A program made the translations under genes and the position numbers. 64,000 nucleotides of DNA, from positions 1 through 64,000 of the forward strand of contig JAUIGE010000032.1 of assembly GCA_030430205.1 (NCBI GenBank), written 5' to 3'. Of this stretch, positions 1-21,500 are shown in pieces. Under the pieces are notes generated by a model. It made no database searches. It was given only the letters and a program-made list of their open reading frames with translations, and had not been told where the DNA came from. Numbering within the stretch: position 1 is the stretch's first letter; each line of letters opens with the position of its first letter. Source of the DNA: Bacteroidia bacterium (GTDB lineage: Bacteria; Bacteroidota; Bacteroidia; J057).

Positions 1-3000
1 ATACTGCCCACTATTCACCTGCCCATTGCTGGCTGAAACACTGCCAACTGGACTGGTTCCGAGTTTCGGGTCCGCATCATAGAAGGTATAGCCAGAGGCT
101 ATATTTCGGCTGTCGCTGACATAAGCCGCCAGATTTATCTGAGCTGTACCACAGCCGATGGCTGGAATATCCAGTGTCACAATGGAGGTTTTTCTCACCC
201 TCACTCTCACCCTTCTTGCCTCTCCTTCACAAGCATTGAGCCCCTGGCTCACCCAATAAAATTGGGTATTGTTGCTCGATATATTCACTACTGGCGTACT
301 GATAGCTGCTCCCTGCTGACTGTTCACATCGGCGTACCAGAAGAAGGCTGCACCAGGCTCATAGCTGACATTGGCCGTGAGCAGTGCTTCGAGATCGGGT
401 GTTGTCTCACCTTCGCAGAAGTCGAAGCGGATTTGGGCGCAGTTGCCGCAATTTTGTGGCGCGAGCTGAGAAGGCTTATGTTTAACGATAACAGTCCTGT
501 AAATCTGAGCTGAATTGCCCGCGGCATCTGTGACTGAGTAACTTATCGTGTAAGTACCTGCCTGACTTGTGTTGAGGTTGCCGTTATCTATGGTAATATG
601 TTGAGAAATACCAGGATTACAATTGTCACTGGCTACTGCCCCTGCTTCGATATAATTTTCGCCTGGACACAGCTCAATAGGATTATTCCCTAACAGACTG
701 AGTATAGGGTCCTCATCATCATTGATGGTAATGGTAAAGGAACAAGATGCAGTATGGCCGGAAGCATCGGTGACAAGATATGCTTCTGTTGTCGTTCCTA
801 TCGGGAAGGCACTTCCACTTCCCAGCCCAGCAATTTGCTGGGTGGTGCTGCCACAGTTATCCTGCCCTATAGGCGTGAAGTAGGTGATTATGCGATCACA
901 GTTACCTGTATCATTGGATAAGTTGAGGTTGGCGGGGCAACTGATCGTTGGGTTCTGGTCATCTATGACGCTTACTGTGAAGGAGCAGAAAGCTGTATTT
1001 CCGCTGGCGTCGGTGACGCTGTAGCTTTGGGTAGTGGTTCCGATAGGAAAGAAATCGCCGGATGTCAGGCCGGAGCCGTCTGTTTGAACGGGTGAAAGGG
1101 TATTTCCATCGCAATTGTCAACAGCTCTGATATTATAGTTCTGAACAATTCCGCAACTGTTCAGTGAATTGGACAGCACAAGCTGTGAAGGACAGGTCAG
1201 GATAGGTGCTTCGGCGTCTATGATAGTAACAGTGAAAGAACAGGCGGCAGTATTGCCGCTGGCGTCGGTGACCTGATAGGTCAGAGAAGAAGTGCCTGTA
1301 GGAATAAAAGTAGCTTCTTTTTGTACAGCAAGCGCGTGGCGATACCCTGCCCCTATCAATTCCCAGCCGAGATCAGAGGGAATCTGCACAGGGCTGACCT
1401 GGTTTTCCCCTGAGTTTCCATTTCCAAGTTGCTGAACATTATCCCTTCCCCAGGTCCAAAGGCTGCCATCAGCCTGCAAAGCCATGGAGAAGTGTTCACC
1501 AGCCGCAATGGAAACCCAGTTATTTGCTAGTCCGATTCTGACAGGACTGCTTTGCTGTGCATTTGCTCCCCCATCGCCCAATTGACCATAGGTATCATCC
1601 CCCCACGCCCAGAGGCTGCCGTCTTGCCGAATAGCCAGGGTATGGCTTTCCCCAGCTGTAATCTGAACCCAATCTGTATCTGTCCCCACCTGAGTGGGGA
1701 GGGTAACATCCTGACCGGAAGTGCCAATTCCCAATTGACCAGTAGCATTATCGCCCCAGGCCCACAAGCTACCATCTGCCTTAATTGCTAAAGCAAATTC
1801 ATGTCCACAAGTTATAAATACCCAATCATTATCAGTTCCCACTCTTCTAGGTGAAGTTTTGTTTCCAGTGATAGAACCATTTCCCAATTGCCCCTTATCA
1901 TCTGCCCCCCAGGCCCATAAACTGCTATCAGCACGTATGGCCATGGAAAATTCGCTCCCTGCTGCTATTTGAAGCCATTTTTGGTTTGTTGCTATTTGTG
2001 TGGGCGTACCTACGGGAAGATTTGCATTACTATTATTTACAGGCCCACCATTTCCCGCTTGTCCCTCAAAATCTCTCCCCCAGGTCCAAAGGCTACTGTC
2101 TTTTCGCAAAGCAAGATTGTGAAAGCCTCCTGCTGCAATTTTTATCCAGTCAGAAATAGAACCAATCTGACCTGGGGTATACAAAAAATTGCCGTGTCTT
2201 CCAGCTGCCCCGCTTCCCCAGGACCAAAGGGTACTATCTTTTGCCAAGGCCAGACTCAACTCAAAGCCCCCAGCCAATTGTGTCCAGTTTTTTGAGTAAT
2301 CGATTAGCGTAGGGTTTGGTATAGGGCCATCGTTGGTGCCATTACCAACCTGGCCTCGATTATTACGCCCCCAGCCCCAAAGGCTTTGGGTTAATAGGGG
2401 CCCCGCAGTCTGCTGAATGGTCCCGGAACAGTTGTCACTCATGGTAGGAAAAAGACCATTTGTAATCATTTTTCCGCATAAAGCAGAATCACTATCAGCC
2501 GTAAAGTTGGCAGGACAACTGATCGTAGGAGCTTCGTTGTCCTGAACAGTTATGTTAAAACTACAGCTTGAAGTATTCCCTGCTGCATCTGTTACTTGCA
2601 GATGTTGGAAGGTCGTACCAATAGGAAATTCGTCACCAGAACTGAGGCCACTGTTATCAAGATGAGCAGAAGTTGTAGGACAAATGGAAGTGATCGTCGG
2701 ATTGTAATTAACCACAGCTCCACAGCTTCCCACATCATTGTTCACTGAAATATTTGACGGACAACTAAGCGCTAAAGGCACAGAACTCAAAAGGGTAACT
2801 GTTGTCTGACAAGCTGCGGTATTGAGATTATTATCCGTCACGGTCATGGTCACGGAAGGCGTTCCACCAAATTCTGCACAGGTAAATGTGGTTTGTGAAA
2901 GCGCGAGGGATGGTATTCCGCAATTGTCCCAGGAGCCATTGTCGACTGCGCTTGTAGCGAGGGTAGCGTTGCCGGAGGCATCGAGGGTAAGGGTAACGGG

Positions 3001-5016
3001 TTGGCACATCGCCAAAGGAGGTGCGGGATCTATCGCCTTGACGATCGCCTGACAATTGGAGGTATTACCCGCTAGATCTTCCACCGTCAAAGGGATTTGG
3101 TGGGTGCCTAAGTCTCCACAGGTAAAAGAAAAGAAGGTATTATTGCTCTTAAGGCCGCATCGGTCGGAGGAACCGTTGGTGAGGTCAGCATGGCTGACCG
3201 TAGCTGAAAGGCCTGTGACGTTGACTGTCACGGTATTACAGACCGCCGTTGGCGGGGTATTGTCTACGATTGTTATGGTTGCAGTGCAGGTATCAGACTG
3301 ACTTTGTGTTTGATCGGAAATAATAAGGGGAAATCTGCGGACGCCAATATCCGAGCAATCAAAAGTTATATTACCTGATGGATAGTTCAGTCCAGCACAA
3401 TTGTCTGAAGAAGCCGCCACAAGACTTTGGAAAGACCGACTTTGATTTGTGGTACCCACATCCAGCGTCAGTTGTTGGCAGACTGCCACGGGTGGAATGG
3501 GGTCTTCAACAATGACCGTAGCGGTACAGGAAGCAAAATTTTCTCCTCTATCTTCCACATAATAAGTCACAATCTGGGTTCCGACATCAGAACAGTCAAA
3601 AATACTTTGGCTGAGGCTGTCGGATTTGATTCCGCAATTATCTGTTGCGCTGAGTTTGATTTGATTGGCAGTGATACTTGCCTGACCGGATGCATCCAGT
3701 TGGATGGTAAGAGGGGTATTGCGGCAAGTTACAGTAGGCGAAATCGTATCTTCCACAGAAACAATGGTCGTGCAAAAATCGGAGCCCTGGGAACTGGTTA
3801 CGACCAGATAATAAGTATTGTCTCCCAAAAAGCTACAATCCAACGTACCTGTCGAGGGACAGCTAAAGAAAGAGAAATAGCAAAAACTGAGCGTTGGGCC
3901 TACGGGATTAATACTTCCTCCATCGGAGTCGGCAGCATTAAAGGTCGCCTGGCCGGAGGCGTCCAGGTAATAGGTGACGTCTTTGCAGACAGGAATAGGC
4001 AAAGTAGGATCTTTGTCTAAAAACTGATAGGTAACGAATCCGTCATCTGGGGAGCCGTCTGTTCCGCCTTTTGTCATAGAGCCAGAGATGGCAAATCCGT
4101 TATTATAATAACTTCCGCCGCCGCCGCCAGCACTATAGGTTTGTCCTCCTCCACCGCCTGAGTATCCCCCACCGCCACCGGCTCCCTCTGACGGCTTACC
4201 CCCTCCACCATATCCATAACCATATGTATAAATCCCTCCCAATCCACCTCTTATACCTCCCTTTTCTCCTCCTTTGGAACTTTCTCCATCTCCTCTGTAT
4301 CCTCCTCCTCCTCCGCTTGGATAAGCGCCGAGCGCATCGAGTGGAGCCCCTCCTCCAAATCCATTTATGCCAGCTGTATTCCCCGTTCCAAACCCATTGA
4401 GGCCATTAGTGCCATCATTTCCTCCTTTTCCCGCCTGCCCTCCGCAAACACCTGATGAATAGGCGCCGCCTCCCCCCCCTGCAACAGCTAACAAAACCCA
4501 GCGGCTGGAAGTACTGTCCGGACTCAGGGCAGGTAGCGCAAAGCCATTATTCTCTCCTGAAAGACCAGGGTCCTGGTACAATATCGCCGTACCTCCTCCC
4601 CCTCCGGCTCCGTTAGGATTATTATTTCGGCGAGACCAACCTTGTCTTCCCAAAATCACACGAACCGCTCCGCCAGGTTTGAGCATGCCTCTCCCTGTTC
4701 CTATCGGAATTTCAATTGTGGTGGTCGCGCCTCCACCGCCTTTGGTGGTACATAAGCCTGGCACTACCCTTTTGCCACCATCTCCCCCTCTCAAGGTGAA
4801 TTTGATATGGTCATAAACCCCCACATTAGTAGGAATGGTAAGGTTATAGCGGAGTGTTACGGTATCAACTATTATTTTTGATTCGATAATGTTGATTAAT
4901 CCGTCATCTACGAGGGTTCCTTCTTCTGTACCAATATAACTCACTTGAGCCAATAGCTGTATTTGACTGAGCAATAAGACACTTAGGCTAATAATTAAGA
5001 TAATGTTAGACTTCAT
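1..5016 (-). CDS. Giant secreted HYR-repeat protein A with RCC1-like propeller insert (C-terminus outside window)
   Basis: At least 1672 residues; the reading frame runs off the left edge, so the C-terminus is not seen. The ATG at 5016 is followed by a signal peptide (about 1-24, ending LLAQ). Residues about 55-330 are a glycine-rich domain with many GGGGG runs, like the N-terminus of protein C. Then come HYR-type Ig repeats with recurring SCPxNI, DNC and TDASGNTAxCSF signatures. One HYR repeat is interrupted after SGTIQQTAG by seven RCC1-like blades (about 870-1230, each with an SLWxWG...GQLGNG signature), and the HYR strand resumes at FIPTGTSSLTYQVTDASGN. A DUF5011-like domain and an Ig-like module with a VRVRVRKTS stretch follow. 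Paralogues B and C end in a T9SS sorting domain, so A probably does too (inference). It lies 127 bp behind kinase K1, with a 21-bp-spaced direct repeat between them. The likely role is a cell-surface adhesin or ligand-binding protein; the ligand is unknown. Confidence 0.9.
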   Translation of the reverse strand, partial: MKSNIILIISLSVLLLSQIQLLAQVSYIGTEEGTLVDDGLINIIESKIIVDTVTLRYNLTIPTNVGVYDHIKFTLRGGDGGKRVVPGLCTTKGGGGATTTIEIPIGTGRGMLKPGGAVRVILGRQGWSRRNNNPNGAGGGGGTAILYQDPGLSGENNGFALPALSPDSTSSRWVLLAVAGGGGGAYSSGVCGGQAGKGGNDGTNGLNGFGTGNTAGINGFGGGAPLDALGAYPSGGGGGYRGDGESSKGGEKGGIRGGLGGIYTYGYGYGGGGKPSEGAGGGGGYSGGGGGQTYSAGGGGGSYYNNGFAISGSMTKGGTDGSPDDGFVTYQFLDKDPTLPIPVCKDVTYYLDASGQATFNAADSDGGSINPVGPTLSFCYFSFFSCPSTGTLDCSFLGDNTYYLVVTSSQGSDFCTTIVSVEDTISPTVTCRNTPLTIQLDASGQASITANQIKLSATDNCGIKSDSLSQSIFDCSDVGTQIVTYYVEDRGENFASCTATVIVEDPIPPVAVCQQLTLDVGTTNQSRSFQSLVAASSDNCAGLNYPSGNITFDCSDIGVRRFPLIISDQTQSQSDTCTATITIVDNTPPTAVCNTVTVNVTGLSATVSHADLTNGSSDRCGLKSNNTFFSFTCGDLGTHQIPLTVEDLAGNTSNCQAIVKAIDPAPPLAMCQPVTLTLDASGNATLATSAVDNGSWDNCGIPSLALSQTTFTCAEFGGTPSVTMTVTDNNLNTAACQTTVTLLSSVPLALSCPSNISVNNDVGSCGAVVNYNPTITSICPTTSAHLDNSGLSSGDEFPIGTTFQHLQVTDAAGNTSSCSFNITVQDNEAPTISCPANFTADSDSALCGKMITNGLFPTMSDNCSGTIQQTAGPLLTQSLWGWGRNNRGQVGNGTNDGPIPNPTLIDYSKNWTQLAGGFELSLALAKDSTLWSWGSGAAGRHGNFLYTPGQIGSISDWIKIAAGGFHNLALRKDSSLWTWGRDFEGQAGNGGPVNNSNANLPVGTPTQIATNQKWLQIAAGSEFSMAIRADSSLWAWGADDKGQLGNGSITGNKTSPRRVGTDNDWVFITCGHEFALAIKADGSLWAWGDNATGQLGIGTSGQDVTLPTQVGTDTDWVQITAGESHTLAIRQDGSLWAWGDDTYGQLGDGGANAQQSSPVRIGLANNWVSIAAGEHFSMALQADGSLWTWGRDNVQQLGNGNSGENQVSPVQIPSDLGWELIGAGYRHALAVQKEATFIPTGTSSLTYQVTDASGNTAACSFTVTIIDAEAPILTCPSQLVLSNSLNSCGIVQNYNIRAVDNCDGNTLSPVQTDGSGLTSGDFFPIGTTTQSYSVTDASGNTAFCSFTVSVIDDQNPTISCPANLNLSNDTGNCDRIITYFTPIGQDNCGSTTQQIAGLGSGSAFPIGTTTEAYLVTDASGHTASCSFTITINDDEDPILSLLGNNPIELCPGENYIEAGAVASDNCNPGISQHITIDNGNLNTSQAGTYTISYSVTDAAGNSAQIYRTVIVKHKPSQLAPQNCGNCAQIRFDFCEGETTPDLEALLTANVSYEPGAAFFWYADVNSQQGAAISTPVVNISSNNTQFYWVSQGLNACEGEARRVRVRVRKTSIVTLDIPAIGCGTAQINLAAYVSDSRNIASGYTFYDADPKLGTSPVGSVSASNGQVNSGQY

Positions 5017-5085
5017 AATTCTTTCACTTTTGTTGGCAAAACTTATTTGTCTCAAAGCAAAAGAGAAGTCCTCAAAAGGCTTCGC

Positions 5086-5143: not shown

Positions 5144-8023
5144 CTATTCTCTGGCCATGGTAGGTGGGATGCCGAAGTCTTCTACAAATAAACGCCCGAA
5201 ATAAGAAGGATCATTATACCCCACCCGATAGGCGATATCAGAGATATTTAGTTCGGGATTTTTGAGCAATTTTTGTGCTTCTTCCATACGTACCTTCCGA
5301 AGGAAGCGCGTAGCAGATTTTCCCGTAAGGGCAGTGACTTTTCGGTGGAGTTGGGTTCTGCTGATGCCCAGCATATCGCATAATTTAGGCACATTGAGTT
5401 CCGGATCATCGAAATGCGCCATGATGACATCCCGAAATTTCAGGATAAAAGCATCTTCTTGTTGAACTTCGATATCCTCGGTAGGGGACAAGGCGGTGAT
5501 TTGCTGCGCGTAGCGCTGCTGTAGTTGCTGCCGCAACCTGATCAGCATATCTACACGCACAAGGAGTTCTTCCTTGTTGAAGGGCTTGGCAAGGTAGGCA
5601 TCCGCCCCACGTTTCAAGCCGCTGATGCGGCTCTCGACATCGGCCTTGGCCGTGAGCAATATGATCGGTATGTGGCTGGTCCGCTCATCTTGTTTGAGCG
5701 ATTCACACAATTCGAACCCATCTTTGCGCGGCATCATCACATCACTGATGATGATGTCAGGCACTTCTTCGATTGCTTTTTCTATTCCTTCCTGCCCATC
5801 GTGAGCGATGCTGATTTGATAGGTTTCACCCAGGCAAAGTTTCAGGTAATGCACCACATCAAGATTGTCTTCGACGATCAACAATTTTAATGCTTCAGTC
5901 TCTTTAGAGCTGATGGAACCAGCAGGAATCAAAGAGGCTTCCGTCAGCGGATTCACAAATTTGGATTCGATAATTTCGTCCCTGAAAGGAGCTATATTGC
6001 TTATCGGCAGGCTTATCTCAAAACTACTTCCCCTACCTACTTCGCTACGCAGCTCAATTTCCCCTCCCATCAACTTGATCAATTCATGGGTAAGGGTAAG
6101 CCCGATTCCCGTTCCTTCTCCCTTGCGGGTCATAGAATCGTCCACCTGATAAAACCGGTCAAAGACATGAGGGATTTTTTCAGGGGCGATGCCGATGCCT
6201 GTGTCGCTTACCCTGATGGTGAGCTTGTTTTGGGTTTCGGGTTTTGGGTTTTGGGTTTTGGGTTTCGGGTTTTGGGTTTTGGGGGAACTTGAAACCTCTA
6301 CGCTAACCTCGCCCCCTTCCGGGCTAAACCTGATCGCATTGGCGATGAGGTTGGTCATGATGCTGCGAATCTTTTCTGCATCAAAATCCATCATCACAAG
6401 CTGCGAATCGGATTTAAATTGCAGATTGATGGATTTGCTTTCAGCATATGACTGGAAGGATTCCAAAAGATATTTCAGGTAGGGAATGATGTTCTCTTGC
6501 CTCATATAGAGGGGCAGGCTGCCCGACTCAAGCTTGCGAAGATCAAGGATTTGGTTGATGAGCAAAAGAAGATTTTCACTGTTTCTTTTGATCAATTCCT
6601 TGGATTCCTCATTCTCTGTAATCATATCAGTCATACCAGAGATCACCGTGAGGGGCGTTCGGAATTCGTGGGAGATATTGGTAAAAAAGCGTGATTTTGC
6701 CTGATCCAGCTCTTTGAGTTGCTCATTGGCCTGGTCCAATTTAGATTTTTCCAGTTCGATGATCTCTTTTTGTTGTTTGGTGAGGCGGAAGCGATTAAAC
6801 AGAATGAAACCAAATAAGAGCGTAAGTACGAGGCCACCCCCAAGGAAATAGGCTGTTTGTTTTCTGCTCTTATTTTCAGCAAGCTGAACGGCCATGGCCT
6901 GGGCATTTTTCAGGCTGTCTACTTCAGCCTTTCGGCGGTATTCGTAAGCATACTGCTGTTCGAGGATGGCCTGGGTATTGGATTCGCTTTGAAGGGAGTC
7001 CTGGAGCGCATAAAAGCGCTTAATCATTTCCAGGCTTTTTCGGTAATCGCCTTTTGCCTCATAAACCTGTTGCAGTAAACCTGCTGCGTTCTTTTCAAAA
7101 GCTGGAAACTTGAATTGTCTGGCTTCTTCCAGACAGGCAATCCCATACTTTTCAGCATTTTTCCAATCTCCTTTCAAAGAATAGATATTTCCCAGGGCAG
7201 CAAGGATGCCGGAATATTGAGTCCTTACATTTTCCTCCCTGTACTTAGCATAGGCTGCTTCCAGGTAAAATAAGGCAGAATCTAAATCGGGAATTTTTCG
7301 ATATGCTTGCCCTATTGCTTCCAGGAGCTCTGCTTCACGGATAGTTTTTTTTTCTTTTCTGACGGTCTGCAGATTTTTATGGAGGTAGGGCAGGGCCGCT
7401 TGCGCATTCCCTTGCTTGATCATGATGGCACTCAAGATGTAGCTGTTTCTGCCTGAGCCTTCAGTATCTCCCAATTGCACTTGCATTTGGTAGGCTCGTC
7501 TTATCCATTCTTCTGCCTTGTCATAATCTCCATTGTTGAAGCAAAGGACGCCTATCCGGGTAATGGAGCTAATGAGGGTGGCTGAATCTTTGATTTTTTC
7601 GCTTAAGGCCAATGATTTGTAATTGGCCTCCAGGGCCTTCTCTATCTGATTGGCATGTGCAAAAAAGAAAGATTGATTTCGATAAAAGACGAGAAGTTGG
7701 CGTTGGTAAAAGTTTCGATCTGCTGCAGAAAGTGGCTCTTCAAGCTTTTTTTTACAAATTCTCCCTCCTAAATCATTAAACAAAGTACTTACTTCTGGCG
7801 TCTCAATGGTGCTCGAAATCGTAAAAATAGCCTTTAAAATAAGGCTGTCATGAGTCGCCTGGGTAAAGACGGTCTTATTATCTTCCAGTGCCTTCTTTTC
7901 TTTTGGGGGAAGGCTATCTGTTTCAATCAAGGAATACAAATGAAAAGCACTGTCAGCATAGTTTTGAGTAAAACTTAGCTGAAAAAAGAGGCAACAAATC
8001 AATCCTAATCCAACACTTCTCAT
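5144..8023 (-). CDS. K1: TPR-containing hybrid histidine kinase/response regulator with AraC DNA-binding domain
   Basis: 959 residues. Signal peptide about 1-19; periplasmic TPR region about 130-330; coiled coil; one membrane helix about 391-411. HisKA has its phospho-acceptor His near 452 (NISHEFRTPL). The HATPase domain shows DTGIGI and GEGTGIGL boxes. The receiver domain (about 714-830) has Asp near 757 in IISDVMMPRKDG and Lys in AKPF. An AraC-type helix-turn-helix occupies about 860-959. Sensor and transcription factor are thus one membrane-anchored chain, an HTCS-like layout but with a TPR sensor instead of a propeller. A heptad-repeat peptide (PKTQNPK units, about 579-599) encoded by repeat R1 sits in a HATPase hairpin loop. 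It precedes A and probably controls it. K3 is its closest paralogue here. Confidence 0.93.
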   Translation of the reverse strand: MRSVGLGLICCLFFQLSFTQNYADSAFHLYSLIETDSLPPKEKKALEDNKTVFTQATHDSLILKAIFTISSTIETPEVSTLFNDLGGRICKKKLEEPLSAADRNFYQRQLLVFYRNQSFFFAHANQIEKALEANYKSLALSEKIKDSATLISSITRIGVLCFNNGDYDKAEEWIRRAYQMQVQLGDTEGSGRNSYILSAIMIKQGNAQAALPYLHKNLQTVRKEKKTIREAELLEAIGQAYRKIPDLDSALFYLEAAYAKYREENVRTQYSGILAALGNIYSLKGDWKNAEKYGIACLEEARQFKFPAFEKNAAGLLQQVYEAKGDYRKSLEMIKRFYALQDSLQSESNTQAILEQQYAYEYRRKAEVDSLKNAQAMAVQLAENKSRKQTAYFLGGGLVLTLLFGFILFNRFRLTKQQKEIIELEKSKLDQANEQLKELDQAKSRFFTNISHEFRTPLTVISGMTDMITENEESKELIKRNSENLLLLINQILDLRKLESGSLPLYMRQENIIPYLKYLLESFQSYAESKSINLQFKSDSQLVMMDFDAEKIRSIMTNLIANAIRFSPEGGEVSVEVSSSPKTQNPKPKTQNPKPETQNKLTIRVSDTGIGIAPEKIPHVFDRFYQVDDSMTRKGEGTGIGLTLTHELIKLMGGEIELRSEVGRGSSFEISLPISNIAPFRDEIIESKFVNPLTEASLIPAGSISSKETEALKLLIVEDNLDVVHYLKLCLGETYQISIAHDGQEGIEKAIEEVPDIIISDVMMPRKDGFELCESLKQDERTSHIPIILLTAKADVESRISGLKRGADAYLAKPFNKEELLVRVDMLIRLRQQLQQRYAQQITALSPTEDIEVQQEDAFILKFRDVIMAHFDDPELNVPKLCDMLGISRTQLHRKVTALTGKSATRFLRKVRMEEAQKLLKNPELNISDIAYRVGYNDPSYFGRLFVEDFGIPPTMARE
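6227..6285. repeat. R1 heptamer repeat inside K1
   Basis: About eight degenerate heptamers (GGGTTTT/GGGTTTC on the plus strand) lie in frame in K1, where 21 bp of repeat encode a 7-residue period (PKTQNPK). The same repeat is intergenic at 29331, 31181, 32284 and 47494. Confidence 0.9.
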
Positions 8024-8189: not shown

Positions 8190-11100
8190 TCATCGCTTCA
8201 GCAGTTTTTGGGAATAAGGCTTAGCTGTTGGATGAGTCATGACAAGGATATAGTATCCCCTTGGCTGCTGGCTGATATCAAAGGCAGTTTCACTGCCTTC
8301 GAGCTTGCCGGTCAGGATCGTTCGCCCGAGCTGATCGCTCAGCCTGTAGCGCCACTCGCCCTCCAGCGGCCCTGCCGCTCTGAGTTGGAATCGACCGTTG
8401 GTCGGATTGGGGTAGAGCGTGAAGCGCTGGGTGTCGTAATATTCGAAATTGATTTCGACGGCATCGCTCCAGATGGCGCGGCCATCGGCGTGGACGAGCT
8501 TGAGGCGATATTTGGTCACATTGCCCATACCTGAGCGGTCCAGGTATGAACCGCTCTGTGGGGTCACATTATAATGTGACCCTACGCCCTGCTGACCAAC
8601 CGTAACCCATTCCCCATCATTAATCTGCTTCTCGATTTCAATTTTTTCCAAAGCAAACTCATAGCGGATTTCCCACTCCACGCGCACATCATGCGCATTC
8701 ACCCTGCTTGCTGCCAACTGAAGACTATTCCCTGCACCCTGCCGACTGCCCACTCCCGGATTTACTGTTATACTAAAGTCCCTGACTTCCCCCGCGCAAT
8801 TATCAATATAGGCGATCGCCCGGATGTTGGCCGTAAGGGCTGTGCCAGTAGGATTGGTAGCAGTGAAGATCATATCTCCCATGCCGAAGCTACCCAGAGG
8901 GCCGATGGGGGCATTGTTCAGGTTAAACCAGAAGATATGGGTGGCGTTGGTTGAATTAAGGTTTAGCGTCACCAGATCTCCTGCATTGACCGTCAGGTTG
9001 CTAACCGGAGCCAGATCAGCAATGGATGTGCTGATGACTTCATCGATTCCTGTCACCTGACATCCGGTATTGTTGCTGGCAGTTGCATAATAAGTCATCA
9101 GGCTGGTCGGCAGACTGACAACTGCATACTGCCCGCTAAGCACCTGCCCATTGCTGGCTGCCACACTGCCTACCGGACTGGTCCCGAGTGTCGGGTCATT
9201 GTCGTAGAAGGTGAAGCCTGTGGCAATGCCCCGACTGTCACTGACCCAGGCCGCCAGGTCCAACTGGCCGGAATTGCAGCCCAATGCAGGCAGATCCAGC
9301 TCCACAATGGAGGTTTTTCTCACTCTCACCCGCATTCTTCTTGCTGGACCTTCACAGCCACTGATGAGCTGACTTACCCAATAGAAGTGGGTGTTATTAT
9401 TGTTCATATTGAGTACTGGCGTACTGATGGCTGCCCCCTGTTGACTGTTAATATCATCATACCAGAGGAAGCTGGCACCCGTTTCATAAGCTAAATTGGC
9501 AATGAGCAATGTCTCCAGCCCAGGCACAGCCTCTCCTTCGCAGAAATCAAATCGGATTTGATTGCAATTCCCGCAGTTCTGAGGCTCGAGTTGGGCAGGG
9601 GTGTGCTTCACGATGACGGTCCGTGTGACTACATCGGCAGGATTGCCGTTTGCATCGGTCAGCATGTAGGTGACGGCGTAACTCCCTTCCTGATAGGTAT
9701 CTACGCTGCCGTTATGGATCAAAATGTTTTGATTTACCTGGCCATCACAGTTATCAGAAGCCGTCGCGCCGGGTTCCACATAGCTTTCGCCTTCACAAAG
9801 GTAGAGAGGATTGTCTCCCAGCAGGCTGATGACCGGTTTTTCATCATCTGTGATGGTGATGGCGAAAGAACATGCCGCCGTATTGCCCGCAGCATCAGTC
9901 ACCATATAGGCTTCTGTAGTAGTACCCAAAGGAAATACCGAACCACTTCCCAGGCCGCTGGTCTTCACGGTATTGCTGCTGCAATTGTCTGTGCCTGATG
10001 GAGTCAGGTAAGTAAGCATTTTTCCGCAAATCCCCGCATCATTGCTCAGGGAAAGGTTCGGTGGACAGCTAATCTGCGGATTGACAAGATCGACGATCTC
10101 AATATTCGCAGAACAACTGCTGCTGTTTTGGTAGGTATCTGTCACGGTCAGGCTGACCGTATTGGAGCCGAGATGGGAACAGTCGAAAGTTGTTGGACTC
10201 AGCTGAAGGCTGACATTGCTACATGCATCATAGGAGTTGTTATTCACCTCCTGGGCTGTCAGGCTGGCATTGCCTGTGGCATCCAGTTCCACTGTCCGGG
10301 ACTGACACATGGCGATGGGTGCCACATGGTCTTCGATCTGCACAGTTGCTGTGCAACTGGCTGCGGCTCCATCGGAGCCGGTGACGGTAAGGGTCACGGT
10401 ATTGGGACCGATATGTGAGCAGTCAAAATCCGTCTGACTTAGGCCGGGGCTTAAATTACAGATATGGCTGGAGCCATTTTCAATGGCCTGGGCTGTGGTG
10501 CTGACATGGCCGGAGGCATCGAGTTGTAGGGTCAGATGCTGACAGGCTGCCGTAGGGACGAAGGGGTTATTCACCGTCACAGCGGCTGTGCAGCTTTTTT
10601 GATTGCTGTAGGTATCCTCCACGGTAAGCGTCACCGTCTGCACGCCTACCTCCGTGCAGGAAAAGGTATGGGGAGAAACCGTAAGGCTCTGCAGACCAGC
10701 AGAGGTGATGCTGCCATCATTGATGTCGGAAACTGCGATGGATGCATATGCATTTGCGTCGAGACTGACCTGCATGCTTTTGCAGCGTGCTTCTACAAAT
10801 TGTACAGCTGCACAGACGTTGTTGGGGTCTCTGATACTCAGGGTAGCAGTGCAACTGCTGCTGTTATCAAAATAATCTGTGACGGTCATAGTCACGACAT
10901 GATCCCCCACTTCCCCACAGTGGAACATGGTTTGATCAAGGGTTTTGCTTTTAATCCCTGTATAACCAATGCTGGCACTGTTATCATAGGAAGCGTAATC
11001 AAACCACTCAATATTGGGTATCGCGATAGCATCGTAAGGAATAGAGGTGTTGTAGTTATAATCAATATTGGCTGTCAGATTGATACATCTGGCGACGGGG

Positions 11101-12875
11101 GCTTCTACGTCGATTACGGTGACAGTAAAAGAGCAGGAGACAGGGTTGTTGCTGGCATCTGTGCCCCCCAGCGTTACGGTATTTATACCGCCATTATGGT
11201 AAACCGGAGCACAACCTCCGGGAGCCGTCCCACTCAATACAGAAGCCTGGTAGGTCCCGCAGTTATCTGTCATCATGGGCAAGCTGTAGTTGATGGTGCC
11301 GCAATTGCTTCCCGGATTGGTATTCACCGTAATATCTGCCGGGCAGCTAATGGTAGGCGGTTCCAAATCATTGATCGTCACATTGGCTGTGCAGCTGGAA
11401 GACTTTCCATTGGGATCCAGCACATCCAGGGTGACTACCCGGCTACCTATATCGCTGCAATCAAAGGTATTGGGCGTCACGGTGAGGGTACCCGTTGAGT
11501 TGGGTACGACACTGTTGTCATCGATATCGGCTGGATCTACCGTGATCACGCTGTTGACGTAATTGGCCGAATAGGCTTTGCATTTGGCAACGGGAGGATC
11601 GCAGCGGAGACCGTTGGGCTTCAGGTCGAATTTTGCGAGGGTGAGCAGCAAATGATTGGGGGCATGGGAAGGCAAATATAACCTGACACCAAGGCTAAAC
11701 AGAAAGCCACCCGGGTGGTATGCAATATCCTCACAACCTGCATTGCCTGTGGTACGGACTACGTTGATCCCTCCCACACCATAACCAGAATCGAAACTAC
11801 CATCCGTATTGAGGCGAATAGACCCTAGCTCTGTGGGATAATTATATCTTCCTCCGATGACTATTTTATCATCACTTTGTAGGGTAATGGTCTGGTAACC
11901 ACTAAAAGTTTTGGGCAAAGAGTTGATGTTCAGTTTTCCATCTCCGCTAAAACTGCTATCAAAACTGCCATCGGCATTCAATCTGACAAGCATAAGGGTG
12001 GAACCGTAACGGATCAACATCACCACTTTATTGTCACTCTGTACCATTAACTCCTCTACATAGTGAGATTGATTGGTAGCCAACTCAAAGTCCTGGAGGC
12101 CACTGGTCCCGAAACTTCCATCCACATTGAATGTCGTATCATTCAGTTTTATGACCCTGATTTTCAGGTTTCCACTCCCATTATCCATGCTGCCCGCAGC
12201 ATAGACATATTTGCCATTGCTACCAATGCGATCATATCCTTCTTCCGGTCCGGGATAGCCGTTCTTATTGACAAAATAATTGGGCTTATGAGCTCTTTCG
12301 CTTACCCCATCTGTGTAAAGCCGTGCAATCAGGGATAATTTATCAGAGTGGTTCCCACTGCGGCCAATGATTTCTCCGCAAATCAGAATCTTTCCATTGG
12401 GGTCGGTAGTCATGTGGGCATGATCGGTATGGGTGATGCCATACTGATGATTTTTTTCCCAGGCTTTGCTTCCATTTGCATTGAATTTTACGAAGGTGGC
12501 TTTTCGCTTTCCGCCTCCGGCGTCAGGGTAGTTGGAAGTGCCTGATATGATGACGCCCCCATTGCCAAAGGCAATATGCTGGGGAGAATGGCCTTCTCCG
12601 CTGGGATTGACACTGGTGGAAGATCTGACAAATGATCCGTCAGCATCATCAAACTCATAGTAGCGGAAGTTGCCGCCATCATTGAAGGCAACATACACTT
12701 TGCCATTTCCCAGGCAAAGCCCCGTCAGGCTTTTGTTGTTGCCGTGTTCTTTTTTGCCATTTGCACCAAAGTTACAATCAAAGAGCTGTCCATGTAGCTC
12801 ACCGGACAACAGGAAAAAGATCAGGATGCAAATCCAGGCTTGAATGGTGGGGAGGTTTGTTTTCGCGTATGACAT
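8190..12875 (-). CDS. Giant secreted HYR-repeat protein B with delta-60-like propeller head and T9SS tail
   Basis: 1561 residues. Signal peptide about 1-29. Residues about 30-415 are propeller-type repeats with delta-60 signatures (LNADGSFDSSFSGDGKL; LNTDGSFDSGYG). A series of cysteine-containing HYR-like Ig repeats follows (FDCSxIGxxxVTLTV...SSCTA), then classical HYR repeats (ISCPANI-like), a DUF5011-like domain (PVISLLGDNPLYLCEGESYVEPG), an Ig-like module, a fibronectin-like module and a T9SS type A sorting domain (FTLYPNPTNGRF...GKLEGSETAFDI...GYYILVM). It should be exported by the Sec and T9SS routes and anchored at the surface or released. It follows S2-K2, which probably regulate it. 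Its rear half is paralogous to C. An internal perfect DNA palindrome lies at 8561-8582. Adhesion is a likely role but the ligand is unknown. Confidence 0.92.
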   Translation of the reverse strand: MSYAKTNLPTIQAWICILIFFLLSGELHGQLFDCNFGANGKKEHGNNKSLTGLCLGNGKVYVAFNDGGNFRYYEFDDADGSFVRSSTSVNPSGEGHSPQHIAFGNGGVIISGTSNYPDAGGGKRKATFVKFNANGSKAWEKNHQYGITHTDHAHMTTDPNGKILICGEIIGRSGNHSDKLSLIARLYTDGVSERAHKPNYFVNKNGYPGPEEGYDRIGSNGKYVYAAGSMDNGSGNLKIRVIKLNDTTFNVDGSFGTSGLQDFELATNQSHYVEELMVQSDNKVVMLIRYGSTLMLVRLNADGSFDSSFSGDGKLNINSLPKTFSGYQTITLQSDDKIVIGGRYNYPTELGSIRLNTDGSFDSGYGVGGINVVRTTGNAGCEDIAYHPGGFLFSLGVRLYLPSHAPNHLLLTLAKFDLKPNGLRCDPPVAKCKAYSANYVNSVITVDPADIDDNSVVPNSTGTLTVTPNTFDCSDIGSRVVTLDVLDPNGKSSSCTANVTINDLEPPTISCPADITVNTNPGSNCGTINYSLPMMTDNCGTYQASVLSGTAPGGCAPVYHNGGINTVTLGGTDASNNPVSCSFTVTVIDVEAPVARCINLTANIDYNYNTSIPYDAIAIPNIEWFDYASYDNSASIGYTGIKSKTLDQTMFHCGEVGDHVVTMTVTDYFDNSSSCTATLSIRDPNNVCAAVQFVEARCKSMQVSLDANAYASIAVSDINDGSITSAGLQSLTVSPHTFSCTEVGVQTVTLTVEDTYSNQKSCTAAVTVNNPFVPTAACQHLTLQLDASGHVSTTAQAIENGSSHICNLSPGLSQTDFDCSHIGPNTVTLTVTGSDGAAASCTATVQIEDHVAPIAMCQSRTVELDATGNASLTAQEVNNNSYDACSNVSLQLSPTTFDCSHLGSNTVSLTVTDTYQNSSSCSANIEIVDLVNPQISCPPNLSLSNDAGICGKMLTYLTPSGTDNCSSNTVKTSGLGSGSVFPLGTTTEAYMVTDAAGNTAACSFAITITDDEKPVISLLGDNPLYLCEGESYVEPGATASDNCDGQVNQNILIHNGSVDTYQEGSYAVTYMLTDANGNPADVVTRTVIVKHTPAQLEPQNCGNCNQIRFDFCEGEAVPGLETLLIANLAYETGASFLWYDDINSQQGAAISTPVLNMNNNNTHFYWVSQLISGCEGPARRMRVRVRKTSIVELDLPALGCNSGQLDLAAWVSDSRGIATGFTFYDNDPTLGTSPVGSVAASNGQVLSGQYAVVSLPTSLMTYYATASNNTGCQVTGIDEVISTSIADLAPVSNLTVNAGDLVTLNLNSTNATHIFWFNLNNAPIGPLGSFGMGDMIFTATNPTGTALTANIRAIAYIDNCAGEVRDFSITVNPGVGSRQGAGNSLQLAASRVNAHDVRVEWEIRYEFALEKIEIEKQINDGEWVTVGQQGVGSHYNVTPQSGSYLDRSGMGNVTKYRLKLVHADGRAIWSDAVEINFEYYDTQRFTLYPNPTNGRFQLRAAGPLEGEWRYRLSDQLGRTILTGKLEGSETAFDISQQPRGYYILVMTHPTAKPYSQKLLKR
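8561..8582. repeat. Perfect 22-bp palindrome inside gene B
   Basis: Each arm is GGGTCACATTA, and the site is a complete self-complement. It lies in the fibronectin-like module, in the codons for GSHYNVT. The homologous spot in C (18925-18952) is also a perfect palindrome, with a compensated base change in both arms. Confidence 0.9.
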
Positions 12876-13109: not shown

Positions 13110-15152
13110 TCAACCTCCTCTCCTCTTCGATGGAGCTTCCCCAAACTCCTGCACGTAGCTGCGGGTGAAGTAGCGGGGGTCGTTGAAGCCGACCTGATAG
13201 GCAACATCTGAGATGTTGAGGTCGTGGTTTTGGAGGAGGGCCTTCGCCTTGTTCAGGCGGAGGAAGCGAAGATAGAGCGAGGTGGAACGCCCGGTAAGGG
13301 CTTTGATTTTGTTGTGGAGCTGGCTGCGGCTCATGCCGACTTCGCGGCAGAGGTCCTGTATACCGAAGTCGGTATCGGTCAGGTGTACCTCCAGGATTTG
13401 CTGGATTTTCAGGATAAAAGCATCTTCTTTTTGCGTCTGCGGATGGGCTCCGCCCGTGACCGGAGTTCCTCCACTCTGGTAGCGCTCCCGCAGCTTCTGC
13501 CGAAGCTGAAGCAGTTTTTCCAGCCGGACAAAAAGTTCCTTTTTGTCAAAGGGTTTGGCGAGATAGGCATCCGCCCCCAACTGCAGCCCCTCCAGGCGGG
13601 CTTCCTGATCTGCTTTTGCCGTAAGCAAAATGATGGGAATATGGCTGGTGCGTTCATCCTTTTTGAGGGTTTCACATAATTCGAAACCGCTTTTTCGGGG
13701 CATCATCACATCACTGATGATGAGGTCGGGCACCTCTTCGAGGGCTCTCTCGATGCCTTCCTGCCCGTCCTGGGCCCAGCCCAGTTGATAATGGCCTTCC
13801 AAACAGGCCAGCAGGTATTGAGCCACATCGGGATTGTCTTCGACAAGCAGCAGACTGGGTAGATTCTCTACAGCTTGTGCCTGGACTTCGATCCGCTGGG
13901 AAGCAGAAGGGGAGAGATGAAAAGGTGCTGCAGGCAGCAGTTCGCTGTCTTCAGCCTCCGGCTCTGCCAACTGCCTCACTGGCAACTGAATCCTGAACGC
14001 TGTTCCTTTACCCATTTCGCTTTCTACATGGATTTCTCCCTCCATCAACTGAACCAGTTCTTTTGTCAAGGTCAGTCCTATGCCTGTTCCCTGGCTGGCC
14101 ATATTTTCAGCCTGATAAAAGGAATCGAAGATGAAAGGAAGCTTTTCCTGCGGAATCCCTATGCCACTGTCTGAGACAGTGAGCAGCAGGCAGTGGGCAG
14201 TTGGCAGTGAAGGATTCTTCGACTGCATACTGCCAACTGCACACTGCAAACTAATCTCCCCGCCTTGGGGGGTGAATTTGATTGCATTGGAAAGCAGATT
14301 GGTCACGATACGCAGCAGCTTTTCGGGATCATAGTCCATCTGAAATTTTGTTTCTTCCGAGTGAAAGCTGATTTTGAGGTCATTCATTTCTGACAGGCTT
14401 TCGAAAGAATTAACCAGGTATTGCAAATAGGAGACGATATCTCCCTGGATGTAATTCAAGCTCAGCTTTCCGGCTTCCAGCTTTCGCAGATCCAGCAGCT
14501 GATTGATCAGGTCAAGCAGATTGCTGCCGTTGCGACGTATCAGGGCAAGGCCTTTCTCCCGCCATGCCTCGGGATTACTCTCGATCTGCTCAGCCATCCC
14601 CAGGATTACCGTCAGTGGGGTGCGAAATTCATGCGATATATGCGTAAAAAAGCGGTTTTTGAGTTCGTCCATCTCGCGCAGGTATGATTCCCTGGCTTCG
14701 GATTCAGACAATTCCTGTGAGGTAGAGTGGAGTTTTTGGGCGGTTTCCTCGGCCTGACGGTCTTTCAGCACCGCCTCATTGGCTTTCTGGATGGTGATTT
14801 CGAGATCTTCGAAATCTATGGGCTTGACGACGAAGTCGAAAGCGCCACGGTTCATCGCGCTGCGGATGTTCTGCATATTGCCGTAGGCAGAGACCATGAC
14901 GGCTTTGGTGGGATGGGGCAGGGCAGCCATATGCGCTACCAACTCCAGCCCGTTCATGACGGGCATATTGATGTCGCAGAGCACCACATCTGTTTCAGGC
15001 TTCGCCTGAAGGCTCGCCAGCGCATCAGCGCCATTGGTCACAAAAGCACATTCATATTCGCCATTGCGAATTTTCCGCCGAAACTGCTGCCGGATCAGGC
15101 GCTCCATTTCCGGCTCATCGTCCACTATGAGGATTTTCACTCCCATATTCAA
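13110..15152 (-). CDS. K2: cytoplasmic hybrid kinase (REC-HisKA-HATPase-REC-AraC)
   Basis: 680 residues with no signal peptide or membrane helix. The N-terminal receiver (about 1-120) has Asp near 59 in VLCDINMPVMNG. A coiled linker leads to HisKA (His near 175, HISHEFRTPL) and HATPase (SDSGIGIP, GTGIGL). A second receiver (about 434-550) has Asp near 481 in IISDVMMPRKSG. An AraC helix-turn-helix ends the protein. From HisKA onward it is paralogous to K1 and K3, but the TPR/membrane sensor is replaced by a receiver. It starts 24 bp after S2, so S2 probably phosphorylates the first receiver (inference). R2-derived residues (about 300-324) fill the HATPase loop. The likely target is gene B. Confidence 0.92.
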   Translation of the reverse strand: MNMGVKILIVDDEPEMERLIRQQFRRKIRNGEYECAFVTNGADALASLQAKPETDVVLCDINMPVMNGLELVAHMAALPHPTKAVMVSAYGNMQNIRSAMNRGAFDFVVKPIDFEDLEITIQKANEAVLKDRQAEETAQKLHSTSQELSESEARESYLREMDELKNRFFTHISHEFRTPLTVILGMAEQIESNPEAWREKGLALIRRNGSNLLDLINQLLDLRKLEAGKLSLNYIQGDIVSYLQYLVNSFESLSEMNDLKISFHSEETKFQMDYDPEKLLRIVTNLLSNAIKFTPQGGEISLQCAVGSMQSKNPSLPTAHCLLLTVSDSGIGIPQEKLPFIFDSFYQAENMASQGTGIGLTLTKELVQLMEGEIHVESEMGKGTAFRIQLPVRQLAEPEAEDSELLPAAPFHLSPSASQRIEVQAQAVENLPSLLLVEDNPDVAQYLLACLEGHYQLGWAQDGQEGIERALEEVPDLIISDVMMPRKSGFELCETLKKDERTSHIPIILLTAKADQEARLEGLQLGADAYLAKPFDKKELFVRLEKLLQLRQKLRERYQSGGTPVTGGAHPQTQKEDAFILKIQQILEVHLTDTDFGIQDLCREVGMSRSQLHNKIKALTGRSTSLYLRFLRLNKAKALLQNHDLNISDVAYQVGFNDPRYFTRSYVQEFGEAPSKRRGG
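14181..14252. repeat. R2 heptamer repeat inside K2
   Basis: GCAGTGG/GCAGTTG heptamers are followed by AGGATTCTTC and then by the opposite-sense arm ACTGCCAACTGC, giving a potential 12-bp perfect hairpin. It is in frame in the K2 HATPase loop. K3 has a longer copy at the same place. Confidence 0.88.
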
Positions 15153-18100: not shown

Positions 18101-18470
18101 GGGAGTGATAGCTCAGCTGAAAGCTGGAATCTGGTGCCAAATAGCCAATTTCTCCATGAGTCCCGATATAGAGCCCGCCTTCTTTTCGCTTGGCTACAGC
18201 CCGGACAAATGCCCCGCCCCGGATGGTGGTTTTACGCCAACGTACACCATCATATTCAAGCAAAAAGCCGGAATTGGCAATGTAGATCAGGCCATTTTCA
18301 TCCTGAAAACCTGCCCAGTTTTGAGCAAGGCCATCATAGTCATCCGCGCTATAGTTCTGGATAAAAGGATTGCCATACAGATAGGGGCTGCCCGTACCCT
18401 GTCCCATTGCAGAAGACAGGATTAGCCCCATGCCCAAGAGAAAAAAATATATATGGCAGCTCCGGATCAT
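15177..18470 (-). CDS. S2: two-component propeller sensor histidine kinase with Y_Y_Y domain
   Basis: 1097 residues. Signal peptide about 1-24. Most of the first 690 residues look like the periplasmic Reg_prop propeller of Bacteroidota sensors (for example GGLYIGTHGEIGYL, GGLWACLNDGLAHVEL, GDIWIES). A Y_Y_Y domain (about 700-765: YSFMLEGFDKKWSKW...LPEGSYHFRVKARN) and a membrane helix (about 780-801) follow. After a coiled coil come HisKA (His near 848, [14 protein letters not shown]) and HATPase (NIFQNALFAL, IKDNGSGIP, TGLGLSI). There is no receiver or DNA-binding domain. K2, 24 bp downstream, supplies both, so the pair looks like a split version of a one-chain HTCS. The ATG at 18470 gives a good signal peptide. 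A second in-frame ATG at 18431 is less likely. Confidence 0.92.
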   Translation of the reverse strand: MIRSCHIYFFLLGMGLILSSAMGQGTGSPYLYGNPFIQNYSADDYDGLAQNWAGFQDENGLIYIANSGFLLEYDGVRWRKTTIRGGAFVRAVAKRKEGGLYIGTHGEIGYLAPDSSFQLSYHSLLDQVPEDKRDFVVTLHIAKTPDAVYFGTDKYLYKWEEGKKDSEGKLSVLEEGVNSSLCFAVNGDIYVRKYTEGLTRLINDSLQLLPGGSFFSQRRIHMMLPWGGRQGYSKEALLIGVPLQGLFVYDQGKVFPFQLPPENQAYLEQNAILDGRFLKNGHIAMACLQGGIVVMDSMGNFVQTVTQAHGLRDAVVTHVFEDQAGGLWACLNDGLAHVELHSPFSFYSVTHGLDMDLECVDSYQKSLYLGGSKGLYQMSLPTSALDHARFTPVKGIEQMVFDLYPYEDELLIASSTGIFQMKAGKVSKLNDANGAAFYPSRFQKEMLFVGLADGIILMKKFSSGWHLLGYFANINGDFRSLQESGPGDVWAGYDQGFVHFQFNFDSLKNTQPPPTDEPHFIPVRVSLHDALNGDNLLYSNVFRVNDQLIFNSPMGKLVYDSLSQKLLRDSLFDKKYKPSRNRHFEIMEDREGDIWIESFRGNEKFIDWIDKGASGEIRKVTAPFFRLKSIETVYDFYSSPDNPSFIWLAGDNGLAGFDKTASFSTQPLFPPLIRRLTSLDDSLIYGGTTLAEKHYFSLPYSSNSLRFEFALPAFDDPSSHQYSFMLEGFDKKWSKWSSETEKEYTNLPEGSYHFRVKARNIYQEERESEALNFTILAPWYRSWWAYLSYALLLAGAVYLLLKWRTRRLEEQNRQLEQLVKERTAEVVQVREQMFMQEKMASLGQMTAGIAHEIKNPLNFVNNFAKGSIELAEDISEEMKDFWEKLPEEDASYIREMLEDIRQNAHSIRKNGQRADDIINTMMNHAEHTSGQRMPVQLNQLIEDNVKFAYQGFDKEDTDFEVTFQIQLDPQLPEISVIPQELGRVLLNIFQNALFALFEKGKQLGKDFRPTLTLSSSYTDQEVVIRIKDNGSGIPEKIRESIFAPFFTTKPTGRGNTGLGLSISYDIIVQSHGGKLEVDSEEGTFTEFIIRLPRKEIQ

Positions 18471-18556: not shown

Positions 18557-21500
18557 TTACTGTTTCACGATCCTCTCCAGGTACTGCCTGCCCTCGGGGC
18601 TGGTCAGCAGTAAGAAGTAGTGGGCAGTAGGCAGGTGGCTGATATCAAAGGCAGTTTCTCTGCCTTGTAGCTTCCCAATCAGGATCGTCCGTCCGAGCTG
18701 ATCGCTGAGCTTATAGCGCCATTCACCTTCAATCGGACCTGCCGAACGAACTGAAAAGCGACCATCGCTTGGATTCGGATAAAGCGTAAAACGCTTATTA
18801 TCATAGAAGTCAAAATTGACTTCTACCTCCTGAGACCAGATGGCTCTGCCATCGGCATGGATTAATTTCAATCTATATCTGGTCAAATTGCCCATGCCTG
18901 AGCGGTCCAGATAGGTACCGCCCTGTAGGGTCAGATTATAATCTGACCCTACGCCCTGCTGATCAACAGTCACCCATTCGCCCTCATTAAGCTGTTTTTC
19001 TACCTCAATTGCCTCCAAAGCAAACTCATAAACAATCTCCCACTCAACCCGCACATCGTGCGCATTCACCTTACTGGCTGCCAGCTGCAAACTGTTGACT
19101 CTCCCCTGCCTACTGCCCACTCCCGGATTTACTGTTATAGTGAAGTCACGATACTCACCCGCACAATTGCCATTGTAGGAATAGGCGCGAATGTTGGCCG
19201 TGATGGCGGTGCCAAAGGGATTGTAGGCAGTGAAAATCAGGTCGCCCATGCCGAAGTTACCCACCAGTCCGATAGGCGCAGCATTCAGGTTGTACCAGAA
19301 GATATGCGTTGCATCCGGCGAATTAAAGTGGACGGTGACCAGGTCACCTGAGTTGACGGTGATATTGCTGATCGGCGCAAGTGTCGCACCCGCACCTGCC
19401 TGCACTTCATCACTGCCCGTTACCTGACAGCCCGTATTATTGCTGGCCACAGCATAATAGGTACTCACGCCCGACTGCAAACTGACCACTGCATACTGCC
19501 CGCCATTCACCTGCCCACTGCTGGCTGAAACACTGCCAACTGGACTGGTTCCGAGCTTCGGGTCGGCATCATAGAAGGTATAGCCAGAGGCTATATTTCG
19601 GCTGTCGCTGACATAAGCGGCCAGATCTATCTGAGCTGCACCACAGCCGATGGCTGGCAGGTCCAGCGTCACAATGGAGGTTTTTCTCACCCTCACCCTC
19701 ACTCTTCTCGCTTCGCCTTCACAACCGCTGAGGATCTGGCTTACCCAATAAAATCGGGTGTTATTGCTGGCCATATTGGGTACTGGCTTACTGATGGCCG
19801 ATCCCAGCTGACTGTTATCATCCTCATACCAGAGGAGGCTTACGCCTGACTCATAGTTGGTATTGGCTGTCAGGGAAAGGTCCAGATCGGGGGCGGCCTC
19901 TCCTTCGCAGAAATCCAGTCGGATTTCGCTACAGTTGCCGCAGTTCTGCGGTGCGAGCTGTGCAGGCGTGTGTTTGACGATGACCGTCCTTGTAGCCTGG
20001 GCACTGTTGCCATTCACATCTGTGACCGTGTAGGTCACTGTATAATTTCCTTCCACAGCCGTATTGACTGCACTGTTATCCGTCAGGATGTTTTGGTTGA
20101 CATGGGCGTCGCAGTTATCGGTAGCCGTTGCTCCCGCTTCCACATAGGCTTCGCCTTCGCACAGGATAACCGGATTGCTGCCTGAAAGGCTGAAAACAGG
20201 TAATTCATCATCTGAAATCGTGATACTGAAGGAACAGGCGGCTGTATTACCGCTGGCGTCGGTGACAGTGAATGCTTCCGTGGTGGTGCCCAGCGGGAAG
20301 GTACTTCCACTTCCCAGGCCAGCCGTCTGGCTGGTGCTGCTGTTACAGTTGTCGCTGCCGATAGGCGTGAGATAGGTGACCAGTCGGTCACACTGGCCGG
20401 GATCATTGGGCAGGCTGATGCTTGACGGGCATGAAATCGTGGGGAGCTGGTTGTCTGTGACAGTCACATTGAAGGAACAGCTGGAAGTATTGCCGGAGGC
20501 ATCGGTGGCCTCATAGCTCAGGGTAGATACACCCAGCGGGAAGGTGGAGCCGGAAGACAGACCGCTGAGGTCGGTTTGTAGGGTGGTCGTATTGCATTTG
20601 AGGATTTCCCTGATGATGATATCGTCGAGGCCCCAGTTATCCTTACTGCCGTTGGTAGAGTATTGGGGCTGTATCCAGCGGAAATAAGTGCCGGCACTTA
20701 AAGCTGCGGCCGGTAGCTCCACAGAACGTTGGAACCGTCCATTTCCGGGACCTCCATTGGGGCCTACCTGATGAATGCTTACCCAGTTGGTTCCATCCAG
20801 AGAATACTGGAAATGTGTTTTCTCATTGGGTTCAGGAAGATCGCATCCCAAATTGGCGCAGCCACCATTGCAATCTGTCGTCAGATATAAATAATCGATC
20901 TGATAGCCATCTCCTGTCGAAAGATCGATTGGCCCCAGCTTCATGCTTCTTTCGACGGTGGAATTGTATTTTATCCATTGAGAGCCATTGCCATTGAAGC
21001 ATGAGTTGGTAATCCCACCTCCCACAGAACGTAGCAGGGAAGAAATGCCTCTGACCCCCCCGGGTCTGTTGCTGGCGCGTTCAAAGTCTTCTTCAAAAAT
21101 GGTAAGCATTTGTTGCCCATCATCTCCTTCAGGAGCTGTAAAATTGACCACCGCTCCGCAGCTGTTGGGATCTACATTTTGAAAAATGGGGTTGGGACAG
21201 CTCAGCGTTGGGGGTGTATTATCAGTGACGGTCACGTCAAAGGAGCAAGCGGCAGTATGTCCGCTGGCATCGGTCACAGTGAAGGAATTGGTGGTCGTGC
21301 CTGTTTCAAAGGCGCCACCGGATTCGGTTCCCGCAGTCTGACTGATACTTTCCCCCGAACAATTATCATAAGATGTAACGCTATAAGTGACTACTGCACC
21401 ACAAAAGTCCGGATCATTATTTACCTGAATATTTGCCGGACAAAAGATCTGGGGTGCTTCTGTATCGCTGATGCTTACAGAAAATGAGCAACTGGCTGTA

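Follow-up and report, generated by a model that had tools for sequence, protein, structure and literature searches.

A seven-bladed RCC1-like propeller inserted in an HYR repeat of a large Bacteroidia protein, and its recurrence in relatives

In a large protein of a Bacteroidia bacterium, here termed protein A, one HYR repeat is interrupted by seven RCC1 blades, and the same arrangement occurs seven more times in another genome of the genus. The protein is encoded at the very beginning of the window, by which we mean the whole 64,000-nucleotide stretch of DNA that was analyzed. We consider it fairly probable that the split HYR repeat displays the propeller with a variable, ligand-binding face outward and that paralogous modules diversify this face. 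As the original prediction had it, the propeller would be displayed from the side of an adhesin stalk, presumably in the service of attachment and adhesion.

The gene and the inserted propeller

The reading frame of protein A is open throughout but cut, because the window begins at a contig end (G000:C37:1), where the 3' end of the gene, and with it the C terminus of the protein, is lost. A hydrophobic, signal-like stretch comes after the likely start codon, and the protein also contains a Gly-rich region together with repeats of the HYR and HYR-like kinds. Such a Gly-rich region (runs of G), without a Pfam match, is N-terminal in both protein A (window about 4050-4820, minus strand) and protein C. 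Protein A is probably secreted by the type IX system, because a type IX sorting tail (Por_Secre_tail) forms the C terminus of its paralogs B and C; it would then be exported to the cell surface. The genes of these three large HYR proteins lie on the minus strand of window positions 1-26922, interleaved with large histidine-kinase genes, mostly hybrid kinase-regulators, and a similar interleaving is seen on contigs of the same-genus genome G009. In protein B (8190-12875, minus strand), a DUF5122 beta-propeller lies close to the N terminus, outside any HYR repeat.

The insert was originally placed at 1315-2410. This location holds (on the minus strand), and the bounds were corrected to about 1321-2385 plus linkers of 4-5 residues (Table 1). 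The HYR sequence indeed breaks off after IQQTAG, its first half being PTISCPANFTADSDSALCGKMITNGLFPTMSDNCSGTIQQTAG (residues 843-885), and after seven blades it resumes as FIPTGTSSLTYQV (residues 1250-1262, beginning FIPTGT). The count of seven blades was right; the motif SLWxWG, proposed for all of them, is present in six only, and the seventh reads TLWSWG. The Pfam RCC1 model (PF00415) matches protein A in seven stretches (213.6 bits, 3.6e-64), above its curated cut-off, and the RCC1-like domain model PF25390 matches with 273.9 bits (3.1e-81).

Table 1. Coordinates of the features discussed (window positions unless a locus is given; res., residues of the respective protein)
Feature	Position	Strand	Remarks
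Protein A gene	1..5055	-	1685 aa present, likely Met14 at 5016
Intact HYR repeat preceding host (res. 760-839)	2536..2778	-	HYR repeat
Host HYR first half (res. 843-885), outer cysteine Cys847	2401..2529	-	Joined-flank HYR match
Entry linker PLLTQ (res. 886-890)	2386..2400	-	Length 5 in 8/8 known modules
Seven-bladed RCC1 propeller (res. 891-1245)	1321..2385	-	Pfam, model and structural match
Propeller blades (starts: res. 891, 942, 988, 1045, 1096, 1147, 1198)	2233-2385, 2095-2232, 1924-2094, 1771-1923, 1618-1770, 1465-1617, 1321-1464	-	
Exit linker KEAT (res. 1246-1249)	1309..1320	-	Length 4-5 in 8/8 modules
Host HYR second half (res. 1250-1280), outer cysteine Cys1272	1216..1308	-	Joined-flank HYR match
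Intact HYR repeat following host (res. 1281-1364)	964..1215	-	HYR repeat
Large histidine-kinase genes	5144-8023, 13110-15152, 15177-18470, 24061-26922	-	
Protein C	18557-23941	-	
Protein C host HYR first half (res. 911-941)	21119..21211	-	
Protein C Reelin_subrepeat-B domain in DNC loop of HYR (res. 942-1115)	20597..21118	-	1.2e-11
Protein C host HYR second half (res. 1116-1163)	20453..20596	-	
In-gene duplicate module pair, G009	L091:7669-8973 and 8992-10296	-	
Two HYR inserts in 4175-aa protein, G000 contig C78	L043:10997-11497 and L043:10355-10831	+	
Laminin-G-like domains (PF13385) in split HYR, two G009 proteins, near N terminus	L095:15530-16225, L101:6507-7223	+, -	4.8e-28, 1.1e-23

In the AlphaFold model, the propeller is predicted to be a closed RCC1 fold, most of it at high confidence (many blocks with pLDDT 85-98). 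Its closest structural match is to HERC2 RLD2 (7q40_C; Z 51.2, 1.7 Å over 347 residues, model range 129-487). The closer matches are to eukaryotic RCC1-like domains (Z 45-51), and BLIP-II matches with Z 30 (2.5 Å). Because propeller chains fill the match list, this search with the composite model tested the propeller only. Both the predicted model and the match to HERC2 RLD2 support the earlier view that the propeller is complete.

The split host repeat and other domain insertions

When the two flanks are joined, they give a single HYR match (PF02494, profile positions 6-81) of 40.8 bits, above the cut-off of 21.7 bits; taken separately, the N-terminal half has no Pfam match and the C-terminal half scores 34.7 bits. 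On a local HYR profile derived from these genomes, the halves are complementary, at positions 1-47 and 45-78. The propeller enters with SLWGWG and exits with HALAV, which are strands of one blade, so that its termini lie close together between linkers of 5 and 4-5 residues. The outer cysteines are retained in 8/8 of the RCC1-split modules now known, as are the five-residue entry linker (8/8) and the exit linker of 4-5 residues. Thus, complementary halves, outer cysteines and linker lengths support the claim that the propeller does not lie between domains but occupies a loop within a single Ig-like domain. The structure prediction that had been proposed as a check agrees in part: in the AlphaFold model of residues 760-1364, the predicted strand order of the host is that of its intact neighbor, and the last RCC1 strand continues into an HYR strand, but the N-terminal half of the host is modeled at a pLDDT of only about 55-74 (the intact HYR neighbors also range from 46 to 84). 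Closure of the host repeat into one Ig-like domain is therefore not proven, and we regard it as strongly suggested. An aligned count of HYR cysteines shows that C1 and C4 tend to be lost together (2/3 versus 0/180, p = 1.8e-4, from very few events); it supersedes a regular-expression count that had suggested C1-C2 pairing. A sequence search for a solved HYR structure returned weak Ig-like matches only (best E 0.38).

A search for further HYR repeats with inserted domains, also proposed with the original prediction, found them in the same window, elsewhere in its genome (G000), in G009 and in G010. In the window, the sister case is protein C, in which 174 residues are inserted in a different HYR loop (DNC) from that used by the propeller. 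Its joined HYR flanks score 66.8 bits, and in a MAFFT alignment both halves align with eight HYR rows of the window, cysteines included. Both halves are modeled at a pLDDT of about 86-96, and the Reelin-like insert is modeled poorly. From this model, 82 residues drawn from range 1-258 can be superposed on Ig-like domains that are each contiguous, the best being SraP (Z 7.9, 2.5 Å); these are VIA-align superpositions with Z 6-7.9, values that can mean merely a common arrangement, and Foldseek alone gave no significant match for the protein C model. Because its halves superpose on contiguous Ig-like domains, protein C suggests that a large insert does not prevent an HYR domain from closing, and it thereby supports insertion into a loop for the propeller of protein A as well.

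The RCC1 insertion itself recurs on one contig of G009, where RCC1 inserts of 7 or 14 blades interrupt seven further HYR repeats, all at the loop used in protein A: three in a frame of 2107 aa, one in a frame of 1034 aa, two in a frame of 1708 aa and one in a frame of 1293 aa. The last of these (contig C77, L092:9722-12106, minus strand) carries 14 RCC1 blades (2x7) within one split HYR, which looks like a pair of propellers sharing one host loop. When a profile covering the entire module was run against 395 genomes of the class, with the best four candidates per genome scored, the full-length matches among those listed were all from this genus; RCC1-type matches as such occur in at least 96 of the 395 genomes. 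As a control, 43 of 46 RCC1 open reading frames from the examined loci had no HYR match above 8 bits, and the remaining three belong to this genus and G010. In G010, which represents another genus of the same family, seven RCC1 blades lie in an HYR repeat, and this case looks like an independent insertion, because the HYR loop, the blade entry point and the linkers (Gly/Ser-rich) all differ. A case in G007 is only suggestive: seven RCC1-like blades, before YGVTCESAGVEVQI, apparently lie within another Ig-like domain, whose N-terminal half is clear and whose C-terminal half is too short to serve as proof. The window's genome also has LFAWG-type RCC1 repeats that are not nested in HYR and run up to both contig ends (L047 and L048, at the ends of contigs C57 and C29); these are probably one gene broken by assembly.

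Other domains are inserted as well. In G000 and G009, HYR inserts include a P-domain, laminin-G-like domains and further domains of about 140-160 residues without a confident family. A 4175-aa protein of G000 alone has two: a proprotein convertase P-domain (8.8e-16) that follows HYR strand A and, in the DNC loop, a domain of 159 residues that no Pfam family matches. No tandem HYR was found in a scan of viral contigs. It is possible, and we propose it tentatively, that HYR in this lineage is a general plug-in host, several loops of which take whole domains (RCC1, Reelin-like jellyroll, laminin-G-like, P-domain), and that RCC1 heads, in tandem or as paralogs and with hypervariable outer faces, make up an evolving surface-recognition repertoire on Ig-like stalks.

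These data bear on two simpler accounts of the junctions. The flanks might be two truncated HYR remnants of domain shuffling that do not fold together, leaving the propeller as a bead between domains; the failure of Pfam to detect the N-terminal half by itself and the modest model confidence would be in keeping with this. We nevertheless consider it very unlikely, given that the halves are complementary, that eight copies preserve both the outer cysteines and the lengths of the linkers, that the HYR part of a duplicated G009 module pair is nearly unchanged (see below) and that the sister HYR of protein C closes in its model around a 174-residue insert. Still harder to credit is a misassembly that joined RCC1 repeats to HYR, even though the gene is truncated where its contig stops and contigs C57 and C29 run out within RCC1 repeats: seven further modules, in a separate genome of this genus, have the same junctions and linkers, and the frame of protein A is uninterrupted. 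A single Ig-like host domain, split by the propeller, is the reading that we carry forward.

The variable face and its possible role

Two modules that are duplicated within one G009 gene show where the propeller varies. They differ at 45/435 residues, and the differences are concentrated in two loops of the blades, WG-xDxx-G and AG-xx-H, where half of the positions differ (22/44) versus 6% elsewhere (23/391; odds ratio 16, p = 4e-13); the HYR positions are nearly unchanged (2/78). In the loops pN is 0.32 and pS 0.18, versus 0.030 and 0.070 elsewhere. Because loop pS is also raised and several codons differ by more than one base, gene conversion or clustered mutation may contribute to this hypervariability. 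A diversity-generating retroelement is not favored, as the codon differences go beyond adenines (TTT to GAA, CTT to AAT, TTA to GAT). In other modules, including that of the window, between-blade variation is highest in the same two loops, which is also seen in pooled entropy. Since a non-nested RCC1 protein of the window's genome varies in the same loops, the variation is a property of the propeller (the cargo) and not of nesting.

Because blade strands alternate in direction, both variable loops should lie on the same side of the propeller, whereas the A-B hairpin turn, to which HYR is joined, should be on the other. The variable face should therefore be opposite the attachment, as reasoned from blade topology rather than a measured structure. 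Under the mechanism that we propose, the first and last HYR strands would fold into one Ig-like stalk domain, with the loop between them extended into the RCC1 propeller. The complete propeller would bud off the stalk on two short linkers, which would enter and leave at adjacent strands of one blade, on the side of its hairpin turn. The opposite face, formed by the two loops of all seven blades, would point outward and bind a ligand, and paralogous modules would diversify this face while their scaffold and HYR host stay the same. The repeated modules, with variation mostly on one face, suggest a modular binding-head system, in which binding would be the role of that face.

What the face binds can be read in other ways. 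In an alignment with UVR8, the AG-xx-H loop falls on the GWRHT motif, which supplies the tryptophans of the UVR8 dimer interface (PMC4501546). Loop positions that correspond to the UVR8 dimer face raise the prospect that the architecture is as described and the face serves self-association of like proteins or cells, not recognition of a foreign ligand; variable homophilic faces would serve kin recognition. We think this unlikely, if by no means far-fetched: the tandem modules of a single chain are not alike, and a diversity of ligands would explain this at least equally well. A propeller that acts as an inhibitor or trap of secreted enzymes on its stalk, in the manner of BLIP-II, seems to us a distinctly improbable alternative. 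BLIP-II does belong to the same propeller group and is among the structural matches, but eukaryotic RCC1-like domains match more closely, and the gene neighborhood suggests no enzyme partner. We retain an outward, ligand-binding face as the preferred reading, and the hypervariable positions supply specific residues with which to test it.

Comparison with known systems

The propeller shares its seven blades, fold and blade consensus with RCC1, the HERC2 RLDs, UVR8 and bacterial BLIP-II, and its variable loops correspond to the dimer face of UVR8. To our knowledge, none of these RCC1-like propellers is an insert in an Ig-like domain. Nested domains of other kinds are familiar from adhesion proteins: the hybrid domain of integrin beta carries an inserted I-like domain, and the pilus adhesin RrgA has a binding domain in an Ig-like loop. 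These differ from the present case in that their inserts are unrelated, vWA-type domains and their context is a eukaryotic receptor or a Gram-positive pilus. In a literature search that had most subscription journals outside its reach, we found no precedent for the combination of HYR and RCC1, for insertions in HYR or for a propeller nested in an Ig-like domain. An RCC1-repeat protein of Flavobacterium psychrophilum, THC0290_2385, has a TIGR04183 sorting domain and is probably type IX cargo, because it is present in the wild type and absent from gldD and gldG mutants; it resembles protein A in its RCC1 repeats, but HYR nesting is not reported for it (PMC5682007).

The closest parallel in architecture is found in the RTX adhesins AhLap, FrhA, and MpIBP, in which an Ig-like domain is interrupted by a whole projecting domain: the chain exits the Ig fold, builds the binding domain and comes back, and the termini of the insert lie together, away from the binding face (PMC12077191, PMC10865825). 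Both systems combine a split Ig-like domain and its projecting insert with a stalk of tandem Ig-like repeats. However, RTX adhesins are type I secreted, and their inserts are PA14-, CBM-, peptide-binding, beta-roll or vWFA domains, whereas the present proteins, from the phylum Bacteroidota, have HYR as host and RCC1 (in other cases a Reelin-like, laminin-G-like or P-domain) as insert, and the paralogs carry a type IX sorting tail; no RTX family match was found in the present part of protein A or in paralogs B and C. HYR halves with a domain between them provide a sequence-only search for candidate binding heads in the large, unannotated surface proteins of Bacteroidota. Split Ig-like domains that bud off ligand-binding heads were already known from the type I secreted RTX adhesins. 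That HYR chains of a different phylum follow this principle too, with RCC1 among their inserts and probably with a different secretion system, suggests that it arose repeatedly.
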